A stretch of DNA of 64,000 nt from Phycisphaeraceae bacterium (GTDB taxonomy: Bacteria > Planctomycetota > Phycisphaerae > Phycisphaerales > Phycisphaeraceae), in NCBI GenBank assembly GCA_029260715.1, contig JAJDCS010000039.1, positions 124,001-188,000 on the forward strand, in the 5' to 3' direction. Made by a program: the position numbers and the translations under genes. The notes under the pieces were generated by a model. That model worked only from the letters and a program-made list of their open reading frames with translations. It did not search any database and was not told where the DNA came from. Positions 50,855 through 55,231 of the stretch are shown piece by piece. Every line of letters begins with the position of its first letter. The first letter of the stretch is position 1.

Positions 50855-52990
50855 TTAGAATCGGATCGACACGCCCGCCCCGGCGCCGAAGTCCGAGTGG
50901 TACTGCCCGACGATCGATAGCTCTTTGGTTAGCGTCCACTCCAAACCGGCCAGCCATTCCCAGCGTTCTTCGGTGTCGTATTGGGCTTCGGCGAACGCCG
51001 AGAGGCGGTCCGTGATTTGGATGTCCTTATGCACCGCCGCCCGGAACTCGCCTTCCGTGTCCACCCACAGGCTGCTTTCAATATTGAAAGGCAGCAGGTA
51101 GCGGACGCCGAAGACACCCCGCGTGTGCTCTTCCGTGACATCCACGCCGCCGAACAGCGTTAAGAAACGATCGAAATAACGGTTGTAGGTAGCCTCGACT
51201 TCGAACTGATCGTCGTCGCCTTGGTCCTCCCAGGCCCCTTCCCACTTGACGCTGAATATGTTGCGCGTGTTGGACAGGACGATCTCGCCATCACTCATCT
51301 GCGACAGAAACGCGGCTTGACCCCAGAAGTAAAACGGGTCGTGGTGCATCTCGTTGCCCGGCTCATGGCGGATGGCGGCGATCACGGGGTCGGGCTGTGA
51401 GCCTTCGTAGTGAACGATGCGCGTCATGCCGGACATCATGTGGTACAGCACGTGGCAGTGCATAAACCAATCTTTGTCCTCGCTGCCATAAAACTCAATC
51501 ACTCGCTTGCCGAATGGTGGGATGTCCACGGTGTGCTTGAGCGGGGCGTGGTCGCCTTGGCCGTTGAGCACGCGGAAGAAGTGGCCGTGCAGGTGGATGG
51601 GGTGGTTCATCATCGTCTTGTTCTCGAAGACGATGCGCACGTTCTGGCCCTTGCGCACGACGATGTAATCGGCTTCGGACAGCGTCTTGCCGTTGAACGA
51701 CCAGATGTACCGCTCCATGTCACCGGTGAGGTTCAGGTTGATTGTTTGCCAAGGCCTGTCCGGCGGCAGCGTGGTGGGCTGGGGTGATCGTAGCCGCTCG
51801 TACGGATTACCCGGTCGCGGTGGGTCGGGCTGGCGCGCCGGCGGCTGCATTGCATGACCCCTGCCGTGGTCCATTGCGTGGTGCTCGCCGTGGCCGGTGT
51901 CTTGCTTGGGCATATTCATGTCCGCGTGGCCGCCGTGGTCCATGCCCATGGCGCTGTGTGCTCTGTACAGGTCGGGCTTGGGGATGTCGGGGGCGGCTAC
52001 GCGCTTACCGGTGCCCAGGTAGGCGGACGCGTGCCCCGATCCGTCTTGAGCGGTGGCGCGGAACTCAAACGCCCCACCGCCTTGGGGGATAGTGACCAGC
52101 ACGTCGTAGGTCTCGGCGATCGCCACGAGCATGCGGTCTGTCTCGAATGGCTCAACGTCTAGTCCGTCCGCCGCGACGACACGTATCGGCCCGCCAGCGA
52201 ATTGCAGGTAGAAATATGTCGCCGACGACCCGTTAATGATGCGCAGCAAGACCGTCTGCCCCGGCGCGGCCTCGATCGCGGTTTCCGGTTTGCCGTTGGC
52301 TAAGAAGCGGTCGTAGGCCACATCGGAAATGTCCATCGGCGGCATGCGGTCGAGCGACTGCTGGAGGGTTTCTTTGAGCGCGCCGGTTTGTATCGCCCCG
52401 ATCAGGTTGGGCATCGCCCCTTTTTTGAGCATGTAGTATTCGCTGCCGCGCTTGAGCGTGCGCATCACCTCTTTGGGGTCTTCGTCGGTCCAATCCGACA
52501 GCATGACCACGTGCTCTGCGTCGGCGTGGACGCGTTTTTCTTTGTGATGGATCACGATCGAGCCTAAAACACCCCGCTGTTCCTGGAGGCCTGTGTGGGA
52601 GTGGTACCAGTACGTGCCCGACTGCTTGATCGGGAAGGAGTATGTATAGGTCTGGCCGGGGCGGATCGGCGGTGTAGTCAGGTATGGCACGCCGTCTTCT
52701 TTGTTGGGCAGCAGCAACCCGTGCCAGTGGATGGATGTTTCCACGTCCATGCGGTTGTGGACGCGCACCACGAGGTCGTCGCCTTCGGTCATTTCGAGTG
52801 TTGGGCCGGGGAGCTGCCCGTTGATCGTCATGGCGCGCACGTCTTTGCCGGTGAAGTTGACGGTCTTGTAATCAACGACGAGGTCGTACTCGACGGTCCC
52901 GGCCATAGCGATGCCGCACCACCCTACCAGCAGAGCAAACACGGTTGCGAAATGAACAACCAAAGGTCTTGATTGATTTCTGAGGCGCAT
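50855..52990 (-). CDS. Copper-type multicopper oxidase fused to a C-terminal outer-membrane barrel
   Basis: ATG 52990 is preferred over TTG 53026 and gives 711 residues. Residues 1-30 are a signal peptide. Copper-site motifs are SIHWHG (about 87-92), YWYHSHTG (about 127-134), HPIHLHGHFF (about 462) and WFMHCHVLYHMMSGM (about 510), the full T1/T2/T3 set of CopA-type oxidases. A Met/His-rich insert (MGMDHGGHADMNMPKQ, about 347-385) likely binds copper. From about 550 the sequence changes to alternating amphipathic strands (DPFYFWGQAAFLSQM, RYLLPFNIESSLWVDTEGEF) ending in IRF, a typical barrel terminal aromatic. This part resembles the CopB-type copper outer-membrane protein. The arsI-like gene is divergent. 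Confidence 0.85.
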   Translation of the reverse strand: MRLRNQSRPLVVHFATVFALLVGWCGIAMAGTVEYDLVVDYKTVNFTGKDVRAMTINGQLPGPTLEMTEGDDLVVRVHNRMDVETSIHWHGLLLPNKEDGVPYLTTPPIRPGQTYTYSFPIKQSGTYWYHSHTGLQEQRGVLGSIVIHHKEKRVHADAEHVVMLSDWTDEDPKEVMRTLKRGSEYYMLKKGAMPNLIGAIQTGALKETLQQSLDRMPPMDISDVAYDRFLANGKPETAIEAAPGQTVLLRIINGSSATYFYLQFAGGPIRVVAADGLDVEPFETDRMLVAIAETYDVLVTIPQGGGAFEFRATAQDGSGHASAYLGTGKRVAAPDIPKPDLYRAHSAMGMDHGGHADMNMPKQDTGHGEHHAMDHGRGHAMQPPARQPDPPRPGNPYERLRSPQPTTLPPDRPWQTINLNLTGDMERYIWSFNGKTLSEADYIVVRKGQNVRIVFENKTMMNHPIHLHGHFFRVLNGQGDHAPLKHTVDIPPFGKRVIEFYGSEDKDWFMHCHVLYHMMSGMTRIVHYEGSQPDPVIAAIRHEPGNEMHHDPFYFWGQAAFLSQMSDGEIVLSNTRNIFSVKWEGAWEDQGDDDQFEVEATYNRYFDRFLTLFGGVDVTEEHTRGVFGVRYLLPFNIESSLWVDTEGEFRAAVHKDIQITDRLSAFAEAQYDTEERWEWLAGLEWTLTKELSIVGQYHSDFGAGAGVSIRF

Positions 52991-53290
52991 AACAGTCACG
53001 TTATGCGTGGCAAATGCGGATGACAAGCGACACCGCTCGATCTAAAGGCGAAGCGTCAAGTTACGGCTCTATAAGCCCAGTATTCGTTACAGCCAGGGGT
53101 ATTGCTGGGCAAATCGCTGGCTAGCAGTGACGGGGGTGGCTGGCTCGATTACATATACCAAGTTCGGCACGATCTATTTGTTATCAGCGACTGCGCCAAA
53201 CACTAGGTGAAAGGCTGCGTCTTTTCGGAAGCGGCTCCGTCTATAAAGGTAGGAATGAAACCCGTATTTTCCAATTTAAAGGAGTAAGCC
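52991..53290. other. Divergent intergenic region of the copper/arsenic island
   Basis: These 300 bases separate the divergent multicopper oxidase and arsI-like genes and must hold both promoters. The arsI-like gene has AAAGGAG at the right edge. I find no confident -35/-10 pair and no clear metal-operator palindrome. The TGTTG-N10-CAACA motif of the left end is absent here. Confidence 0.45.
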
Positions 53291-53740
53291 ATGAATCCTC
53301 AACCCTTTGTAGATTTTCCCAACAACAGCCGTATTCACGTAGGGCTAGCCGTTACAGACCTGGAACGGTCTAAACAATTTTACCGTGCGTTATTCGGTAC
53401 GGAACCCGTCAAAGAACGCCCTGGATATGTAAAGTTTGAATCGACCGACCCTTCAGTTAATTTGTCGTTGAATCAAACCGATGCCGAACAAAGACCCATC
53501 AATCCAGCGACGCACTACGGCATACAAGTTAAATCAACACAAGCGGTCGACGAGGCGGCCCGGAGATTTCAAGCCGCGGGCTTAAATACGCTCATGGAAC
53601 GGCACACCACCTGTTGCTACGCTCTACAGGACAAGGCGTGGGTCGTGGACCCTGACGGGAACCGCTGGGAAATCTTTGTGGTTTTGGAGACTAACACGGA
53701 ACACAAGAAAAACGCCAATTCAACCTGTTGTGTCACGTAA
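53291..53740 (+). CDS. ArsI/CadI-family VOC metalloprotein (organoarsenical C-As lyase type)
   Basis: The 149-residue vicinal-oxygen-chelate protein has likely Fe ligands H16 (RIHVGLAVTDL), H75 (THYGIQV) and E127 (DPDGNRWEIF). The vicinal pair C108-C109 (ERHTTCCYALQDKAW) binds trivalent arsenicals in ArsI. A second CC lies near the end (STCCVT). ArsI is an Fe(II) dioxygenase that cleaves C-As bonds; CadI relatives are cadmium-induced. Ideal AAAGGAG precedes the start. A SigZ-like sigma factor starts 42 bases downstream, so they form a likely operon. Confidence 0.9.
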   Translation: MNPQPFVDFPNNSRIHVGLAVTDLERSKQFYRALFGTEPVKERPGYVKFESTDPSVNLSLNQTDAEQRPINPATHYGIQVKSTQAVDEAARRFQAAGLNTLMERHTTCCYALQDKAWVVDPDGNRWEIFVVLETNTEHKKNANSTCCVT

Positions 53741-53782
53741 AACCGATGCGCCGTCTGCCCCAGCGGCGCGGCAGCGAAAACC

Positions 53783-54352
53783 ATGAAACAGAAATTATCC
53801 ACAAAAAGCATATGGGAGCTCCTCAGCGCCAAGCTGAGGGGCTTTATTCTTTCCCGTGTCCACGACGAAAACGTCGCATCGGATTTGGTTCAGGAAACCT
53901 TTCTTCGTATCCATAAGAGCCTGGATACGATCGACGACGATAGCCGGGTCGAGTCCTGGGTCTTTCAGATAGCCAGGCATTTGATCGCGGACTACTACCG
54001 ATCCCAAAAAAAGACGGCTACGCCACTGGGTATTGAACCCGAAAACGGCACCGAAAAATCAGACAACATGAACGACCGTGCCGCTGGCTGGATCGCTGAG
54101 ATGATCGGGCAACTCCCCGACACCTACCGCGAAGCGGTGCGGCTCTATGAGATGGAACACCTACCCCAGCAGGAGATCGCGGACCGCCTGGGGATAACCC
54201 TCTCGGGGACAAAATCCCGGATCCAACGCGGCCGTGAACTCATCAAGGCATCCCTAGACGCCTGCTGCAAATTTGAGTTTGATGCACGCGGCAATATCCT
54301 CGATTATGAAAAGAAGAATACCACGGCTTGTTGCGACACCTGTGATGATTGA
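53783..54352 (+). CDS. SigZ-type sigma-70 family factor with Cys-rich tail
   Basis: The 189-residue factor has sigma region 2 (DLVQETFLRIHKSLDTI, ESWVFQIARHLIADYYRSQKK) and region 4 (LPDTYREAVRLYEMEHLPQQ, then IADRLGITLSGTKSRIQRGRE). The C-terminal tail holds C161-C162 (ACCKFEFDARGNI) and C183, C184, C187 (TACCDTCDD). SigZ family members share the CC-K-F-x-F-D and terminal Cys features. Direct thiol sensing of arsenite, cadmium or similar ions is plausible. No anti-sigma gene is present. It follows the arsI-like gene at 42 bases. Confidence 0.9.
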   Translation: MKQKLSTKSIWELLSAKLRGFILSRVHDENVASDLVQETFLRIHKSLDTIDDDSRVESWVFQIARHLIADYYRSQKKTATPLGIEPENGTEKSDNMNDRAAGWIAEMIGQLPDTYREAVRLYEMEHLPQQEIADRLGITLSGTKSRIQRGRELIKASLDACCKFEFDARGNILDYEKKNTTACCDTCDD

Positions 54353-54460: not shown

Positions 54461-55231
54461 TTAGGTGAACGGCTGGCGTGAGGTGGCGGGGTGGCCTGGG
54501 TCGATACCTACGCGCGTTCCCTCGGCGGTCTGCTGGGCGGCGGGGCCGGTGATCTCGGGCGGGCGCGGGCCAAGCCAGCATTCCCCCTCGTAGCATTTGT
54601 GGATGATCTGCACCGCTTCGTCGACGCTGTCGGTCACGCGGAATAGGCTCATGTCCTGCGCGTCGATGTACTCGTTCCGCTGGATCATCTGCTCACGCAT
54701 CCAACCGACCAGCCCGTCCCAGAACGCGTGGCCGATACACACGACCGGGAACGGCTCGACCTTGAGCGTCTGGATCAGCGTGAGGCTCTCGAAGAACTCG
54801 TCCATCGTGCCGAACCCGCCGGGGAAGATGATAAACCCCTTGGCGTACTTGACGAACATGACCTTCCGCACGAAGAAGTACCGGAAGGTCAACTCGTGCG
54901 TCTGGTAGGGGTTGGGCTTCTGCTCCATGGGCAGGCTGATGTTCAGGCCCACCGACTGCCCCCCCGCTTCCATGGCCCCGCGGTTGGCCGCCTCCATGAT
55001 CCCCGGCCCGCCGCCGGTGATCACCGCGAATTTGGTCTCCACCAGCTTGCGCCCGCACTCGACCGCCTGCTGGTACTCGGGCTTGTCTTCGGGTGTGCGT
55101 GACGACCCGAACACCGACACCGCCGGGCCGATCGTGCTGAGCGCTTCGATCCCGTCGACAAACTCCGACAGGATGCGGAACATCATCCACGTCTCTTTGC
55201 TCAGGTTTGCTTCTGTCTGCTTTGAATTCAT
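54461..55231 (-). CDS. LOG family protein (TIGR00730)
   Basis: The 256-residue protein has the Rossmann-like nucleotide-binding motifs SVFGSSRTPE, ITGGGPGIMEAANRGA and the family signature PGGFGTMDEFFE. LOG proteins hydrolyse nucleoside monophosphates such as cytokinin ribotides; some bacterial members are annotated as lysine decarboxylase by mistake. The C-terminal 35 residues (PRPPEITGP onward) are Pro/Gly-rich and not conserved. GGAAAG lies ahead of ATG 55231. Confidence 0.92.
   Translation of the reverse strand: MNSKQTEANLSKETWMMFRILSEFVDGIEALSTIGPAVSVFGSSRTPEDKPEYQQAVECGRKLVETKFAVITGGGPGIMEAANRGAMEAGGQSVGLNISLPMEQKPNPYQTHELTFRYFFVRKVMFVKYAKGFIIFPGGFGTMDEFFESLTLIQTLKVEPFPVVCIGHAFWDGLVGWMREQMIQRNEYIDAQDMSLFRVTDSVDEAVQIIHKCYEGECWLGPRPPEITGPAAQQTAEGTRVGIDPGHPATSRQPFT

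Follow-up and report, generated by a model that had tools for sequence, protein, structure and literature searches.

How is an arsI gene switched on when the gene directly behind it encodes an ECF sigma factor and no arsenic repressor lies nearby? The question is raised by a 64,000-nucleotide stretch of DNA (the window) from a Phycisphaeraceae bacterium, whose genome comprises 3.32 Mb in 44 contigs. A preliminary description of the locus reported an ArsI-type gene with vicinal cysteines, followed by a SigZ-type factor with C161/C162 and C183/C184/C187. Both proteins pass their family models and the cysteines are placed correctly. The two-gene unit has the following features:

53216 to 53241, plus strand: putative SigZ-type promoter (TGCGTC at 53216-53221, a 16-nt spacer, CGTC at 53238-53241), beginning 75 nt before the arsI ATG
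53278 to 53284, plus strand: likely ribosome-binding site AAAGGAG, a candidate read from the sequence
53291 to 53740, plus strand: arsI (ArsI/CadI family, C-As lyase-like), 149 aa; 147.3 bits against model NF041414 (ArsI_CadI_VOC), cut-off 116
53783 to 54352, plus strand: sigZ (ECF sigma factor of SigZ type with a cysteine tail), 189 aa; 190.2 bits against TIGR02959, cut-off 168.65
54263 to 54343, plus strand: cysteine-tail codons of sigZ, residues 161-187 (CC, beta-hairpin, CCxxC), the proposed sensor module

The two genes are separated by 42 nt, and a regulatory hairpin in this gap was rejected, since its z-score is -0.34 and 67 of 200 shuffled sequences fold equally well. The sigma factor passes the model of the SigZ family (TIGR02959; e.g. 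Bacillus subtilis SigZ), narrowly misses a second SigZ model, NF007215 (204.5, cut-off 212), and contains sigma regions 2 and 4 according to Pfam. Window ArsI has a vicinal cysteine pair, C108/C109, and a tail pair, C146/C147. PMC12607644 names the Fe(II)-ligand and vicinal substrate-cysteine residues of ArsI; in an alignment to the residues of the T. curvata protein, the putative iron ligands H16, H75 and E127 as well as the substrate cysteines C108-C109 are present in window ArsI, whose best relatives of solved structure are 5c4p and 5d4f. The CC tail of ArsI was discarded as a special mark of pairing with SigZ, because it is usual in ArsI without SigZ too.

The unit is flanked by a divergent multicopper oxidase gene (50855-53026, minus strand) and by a TIGR00730-family gene convergent with sigZ (54461-55231, minus strand). 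The oxidase, a single reading frame, is CopA-like below the cut-off, and towards its C-terminus it matches CopB weakly. As a member of the regulon it was rejected: it adjoins only the window copy (1 of 34 loci), and no second promoter copy faces it.

Neither an ArsR nor an anti-sigma gene had been seen at the locus, and profile searches agree. Of five HTH_5 places in the window genome, the nearest, on contig C33, is some 130 kb distant. HTH_5 matches lie within 5 kb of sigZ in two of 20 genomes (G009 and G291), the window genome not among them; in G009 an ArsR gene is found 1.8 kb upstream of sigZ. No zf-HC2 anti-sigma gene is located near sigZ among the 31 zf-HC2 places of six arsI-type genomes, and several zf-HC2 genes in the same six adjoin other ECF genes. 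The single zf-HC2 match of the window genome is on another contig than sigZ.

Partner genes of SigZ-type loci

The adjacency of sigZ and arsI, set beforehand as a test, was surveyed across genomes. Within the window's phylum, the SigZ model had matches at E≤1e-35 in 16 of 246 genomes, and a profile built from 11 of these sequences matched in 34 of 392 genomes at E≤1e-30. Roughly 9 kb of flanking sequence was added to either end of a locus if the contig was long enough. A scan of named contigs yielded ten loci, nine of them SigZ-type (Verrucomicrobiota, Krumholzibacteriota, Bacteroidota, Planctomycetota and one cyanobacterial MAG). The set of 49 loci consists of 33 extended loci, the window's own, seven from named contigs and eight from plasmids. 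It leaves out L134 (a match at a contig end with no sigma ORF), L031 (a weak, unrelated ECF, E 4e-6), L026 and L030 (on the contigs of L104 and L105) and L039 (a near-copy of L032); L163 enters no count. Genome G279 contributes both L131 and L132, two SigZ-like genes with a different cysteine tail and no partner found. As controls we used 20 other ECF genes, nearly all from genomes of the SigZ loci.

The adjacency is conserved: arsI is located directly upstream of sigZ in six of the 34 Planctomycetota loci, the window included, and the same order is seen in L027 (Krumholzibacteriota) and L029 (Verrucomicrobiales), giving eight of 49 loci. ArsI was beside 0 of 20 control ECF genes, whose surroundings contain a single ArsM-like match, weak at 31% over 158 aa and several kb off. 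The arsI-centred picture of the preliminary description proved too narrow, however, as ArsI is one of several partners. An arsM gene is beside sigZ in nine of the 34 Planctomycetota loci (9/49 overall), with ACR3 and ArsC in the same gene run in two; ArsM scored 316 and 294 bits against a cut-off of 263 and ACR3 380 against 283, while the ArsC matches are below their cut-offs. Two loci have a DF-family-like protein upstream of sigZ (50.3 bits, below the 70-bit cut-off). A small cysteine-rich ORF, often only a few nucleotides away, adjoins sigZ in 15 of 49 loci and, by the same rule, none of the 20 control loci; under a looser rule two arginine-rich shadow ORFs appeared among the controls. These small ORFs diverge strongly in sequence between loci. 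Altogether 34 of 49 loci have an ArsI, ArsM, DF or cysteine-rich partner, and plasmid copies stand with ars genes. Because ArsI is just one of these partners, the constant element of the loci, judged from sequence, is the sigma factor together with its promoter.

On a SigZ tree calculated without the tail, the seven partner classes need 19 changes, as compared to 30.6 in shuffles. The ArsI class alone takes four changes, although well-supported branches force only one, and repeated gain of the ArsI partner appears likely. In L123 (L064) and L126 (L067) the gene order is acr3-arsC-sigZ-arsM; L123 belongs to G009, the genome in which ArsR precedes sigZ by 1.8 kb. The SigZ locus L023, from a contig assigned by binning to Acaryochloris, clusters with copies of Pirellulaceae and Puniceicoccaceae, reflecting either transfer or misbinning.

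The promoter pattern

A pattern CTGCGTC[CT]TTT, followed by CGTC at a fixed distance, was first read before arsI in eight arsI-type loci and was defined on six sites. Many ECF promoters have CGTC as their -10 element. In the 64 kb of the window, CTGCGTCYTTTN12CGTC matches exactly once, before arsI, and with up to two mismatches this is still the only place (0.41 expected). The shorter form TGCRTC-N16-CGTC is found on the sense strand in 32 of 49 SigZ-type loci and 0 of 20 control ECF loci; other spacings from 8 to 24 occur in 0 to 3 of 49 loci each, and the antisense strand carries the pattern in 3 of 49. When sigma starts are trimmed to the profile and CGTT is allowed, the counts are 33 of 49 (sense) and 0 of 20. 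The pattern was derived from arsI-type loci, and the 41 loci of other types therefore provide a fair test: 26 of them carry it. By class, the motif is present with ArsI in 7/8, with ArsM in 4/9, with DF in 2/2, in the cysteine-rich class in 13/14, in the residual class of other loci in 4/8 and on plasmids in 3/8.

Does the motif belong to arsI or to the sigma factor? In a comparison that covered 30 of 40 ArsI places, it precedes one of 27 ArsI genes without SigZ vs. two of three with SigZ, and therefore goes with the sigma factor. The earlier proposal that the sigma factor drives the arsI operon thus gains strong computational support from a putative sigma-specific promoter before arsI.

The motif is absent from 16 of the 49 loci, including the arsI-type locus L108, five of the nine arsM-type loci and several plasmid copies; three relatives of acr3/arsC/arsM type (L120, L123 and L126) also have none. 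Because the standard pattern is absent there, the promoter of the acr3-arsC-sigZ-arsM clade (L123, L126) may differ. On plasmids, three alleles with an altered spacer have CGCATC-N16-CGTT before arsD, and two identical alleles have TGCATC-N16-CGTC before a permease gene. In L105, on the same contig as L030, three promoter copies lie near sigZ, at about -133, at +621 and farther downstream, suggesting a small local regulon; the downstream gene encodes a protein with cysteine-rich stretches. L028 (Bacteroidota) has the promoter between sigZ and a downstream 155-aa protein that ends in cysteine and has no NCBIfam match.

Across whole genomes, TGCRTCYTTN13CGTC has a single copy in G291 (7.7 Mb), in G329 and in G135, and each of these copies precedes arsI-sigZ. 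The window genome has four copies, G020 has one and G355 two, those of G020 and G355 all lying away from sigZ; backward-pattern controls gave 0 or 1 match per strand per genome. A wider regulon in the window genome was set aside, as two other exact matches and the one-mismatch sites L158, L159 and L160 are inside reading frames. A further match of the genome-wide pattern is at C21:126825, and no long ORF runs across the one-mismatch site L161.

The cysteine tail and its likeness to CorE

The only cysteines of window SigZ are C161, C162, C183, C184 and C187, in the pattern CC-x20-CC-x2-C; none precedes residue 161. C161, C162, C184 and C187 are invariant in an 11-row alignment of SigZ from Planctomycetota, and C161, C162 and C184 in a nine-sequence alignment. 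A script counted at least three tail cysteines in 46 of 49 SigZ-type loci, and one of its three misses, L024, has five. The last 45 residues of the control ECFs contain no cysteine in 18 of 20 and a single one in the other two. The distal tail cysteines vary in number and spacing among SigZ-type loci. In a moderate-confidence AlphaFold2 model of window SigZ, built on nine sequences (pLDDT 79.8, pTM 0.44), C161 ends the last helix and is followed by a hairpin (strands 162-166 and 172-177) and then by the distal cysteines. Such a hairpin would bring both cysteine groups of the tail together.

The closest precedents are CorE and CorE2 of Myxococcus xanthus (former ECF44, now near ECF238). PMC3107203 and PMC8999054 describe them as ECF sigma factors with a cysteine-rich C-terminal extension and no linked anti-sigma gene, adjoining metal-handling genes and mounting a self-contained metal response, with CorE sensing copper and CorE2 Cd/Zn (PMC8999054). 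The lack of a linked anti-sigma gene is a feature that window-type sigZ shares, as judged from zf-HC2 in the six arsI-type genomes. The preliminary description had called metal control of a sigma factor without an anti-sigma partner uncommon, which is fair, but these two proteins set a precedent.

The likeness does not extend to the details of the cysteine sites. According to PMC3107203, CorE has a 38-residue domain with C181, C184, C189, C192, C194 and C206, of which 181, 184, 192 and 194 are invariant (CxxC ... CxC), a spacing not matched by CC-x20-CCxxC. The linker CXC of CorE is missing from window SigZ; most members of the new ECF238 group have no linker CXC motif either, as PMC8999054 states. 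The partners of CorE are copper genes, whereas those of window-type SigZ are arsenic genes. Membership of window SigZ in the CorE group was rejected on the CXC motif and the cysteine spacing. ECF287 and ECF288 also have cysteine-rich C-terminal extensions, suggesting CorE-like regulation (PMC8999054).

Priestia SigZ shares the tail core CC-x4-D-x2-GN with window SigZ, but keeps only the CC pair and has no distal cysteine cluster; its gene, unlike window sigZ, has no arsenic neighbours. In Priestia megaterium (L032) an exact TGCATC-N16-CGTC is located upstream of sigZ but in the reverse orientation, pointing towards an aldo/keto reductase gene that is divergent from sigZ.

Self-control of the operon, rival readings and plasmid copies

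We hypothesize, with a probability of roughly 0.6, that arsI and sigZ form one self-activated operon in which SigZ reads TGCGTC-N16-CGTC and the cysteine tail acts as a switch for a thiophilic ion without an anti-sigma protein. SigZ would recognise the site before arsI, as the comparison of loci suggests, and would transcribe arsI and its own gene. C161-C162, the hairpin and C183-C184-x2-C187 would form a binding site for a trivalent arsenical or a different thiophilic ion, and this binding would switch SigZ on directly, with CorE as the model. As its family suggests, ArsI would then cleave the C-As bond in methylarsenite or in aromatic arsenicals. In relatives, the same type of sigma factor and promoter would run arsM, small cysteine-rich, metallothionein-like ORFs or plasmid ars genes. 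The operon, its promoter, the self-control, the arsenic-rich context and the conservation of the tail are supported by sequence comparison; that the tail is the receptor and that binding activates SigZ we infer by analogy.

Other ions or other roles of the sigma factor would have to be weighed against this. The same circuit might sense a different thiophilic metal (copper, cadmium, mercury or zinc) instead of arsenic. NF041414 covers CadI besides ArsI, the adjacent divergent gene encodes a multicopper oxidase, a generic cysteine-rich ORF is the partner in 15 of 49 loci, and the ions known for CorE and CorE2 are copper and Cd/Zn; but arsM, ACR3, ArsC, ArsH and ArsD beside the relatives are arsenic genes, the oxidase is confined to one of 34 loci and no promoter copy faces it, and we consider a non-arsenic ion unlikely. 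SigZ could also be an amplifier rather than a sensor, with ArsR or another regulator starting transcription that SigZ then reinforces. ArsR does adjoin the sigma gene on enterobacterial plasmids and is 1.8 kb away in G009, and because of these cases the primary sensor may at some loci be something other than the SigZ-type sigma factor. As a general account, amplification seems rather improbable, for 18 of 20 genomes, that of the window included, have no HTH_5 within 5 kb of sigZ, and the cysteine tail is retained across phyla.

The tail itself allows two further interpretations. Vicinal and paired cysteines would suit a disulfide, and Priestia sigZ has an aldo/keto reductase gene as its divergent neighbour, as might be expected if the tail were a thiol-redox or electrophile switch and not a metal site; the main partners, however, are arsenic genes and cysteine-rich ORFs, which makes such a switch distinctly improbable. 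We are even more doubtful that the upstream cysteine-rich protein, or the cysteine tail of ArsI, serves as a soluble anti-sigma factor or metal buffer that releases SigZ. The proximity of the cysteine-rich ORFs to sigZ and the CC tail of ArsI would fit that role, but CC tails are no less usual where ArsI has no SigZ, and the small ORFs differ widely in sequence between loci.

The arsenic-directed, self-activated operon would be a departure from the usual scheme. The bacterial arsenic response has mostly been described through the ArsR repressor, and a sigma factor with its own thiol site and promoter would constitute a second, activating logic. ArsR-controlled arsI operons such as the skin ars operon of B. 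subtilis (PMC12607644) likewise place arsI under metalloid-related control; they are repressor-based, whereas in the window the sigma factor seems to replace that regulator. The SigZ family probably represents a route, so far given little attention, by which arsenic and metal defences are induced. In the open-licence literature searched we found no role for B. subtilis SigZ and, among the matches listed, no arsenic-responsive SigZ and no report of a TGCRTC-N16-CGTC promoter. The present locus offers a concrete lead on the function of SigZ-type sigma factors, and its identified promoter makes the proposed link to arsI directly testable. A broader proposal, to which we give slightly less than even odds, is a cross-phylum class of arsenical-sensing sigma factors in which a cysteine-clamped beta-hairpin tail makes the sigma factor itself the receptor for As(III)/MAs(III), with a dedicated TGCRTC-N16-CGTC promoter, present as a single copy in some genomes, and interchangeable detoxification partners (arsI, arsM, metallothionein-like ORFs), and which extends to ars clusters on many enterobacterial plasmids. 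If true, it would point to a function for the orphan SigZ of Bacillus.

Among 72,556 plasmid records, 1252 match window SigZ at E≤1e-15, and 1005 of these are from Klebsiella. For 13 of these or related records the genes around the match were inspected. The order on plasmids is either arsR-arsH-sigma-arsD or sigma-permease-thioredoxin divergent from arsR-arsC-arsD-arsA, and one record shows the sigma-permease-thioredoxin run with no ars genes in view. Two plasmid sigma proteins scored 144 and 147 bits, under the SigZ cut-off, and have a rearranged tail, C-x10-CC. In L035, L036, L162, L164 and L165 the SigZ-like gene is part of an ars cluster or (L164) precedes a permease-thioredoxin pair, with a conserved promoter before arsD or the permease gene. 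These genes are annotated merely as a generic sigma factor, and our analysis draws attention to them in the ars clusters of common enterobacterial plasmids. For one KPC plasmid, PMC6286996 lists a hypothetical gene that separates arsH from arsD, in the position that the SigZ-like sigma gene occupies on other plasmids.
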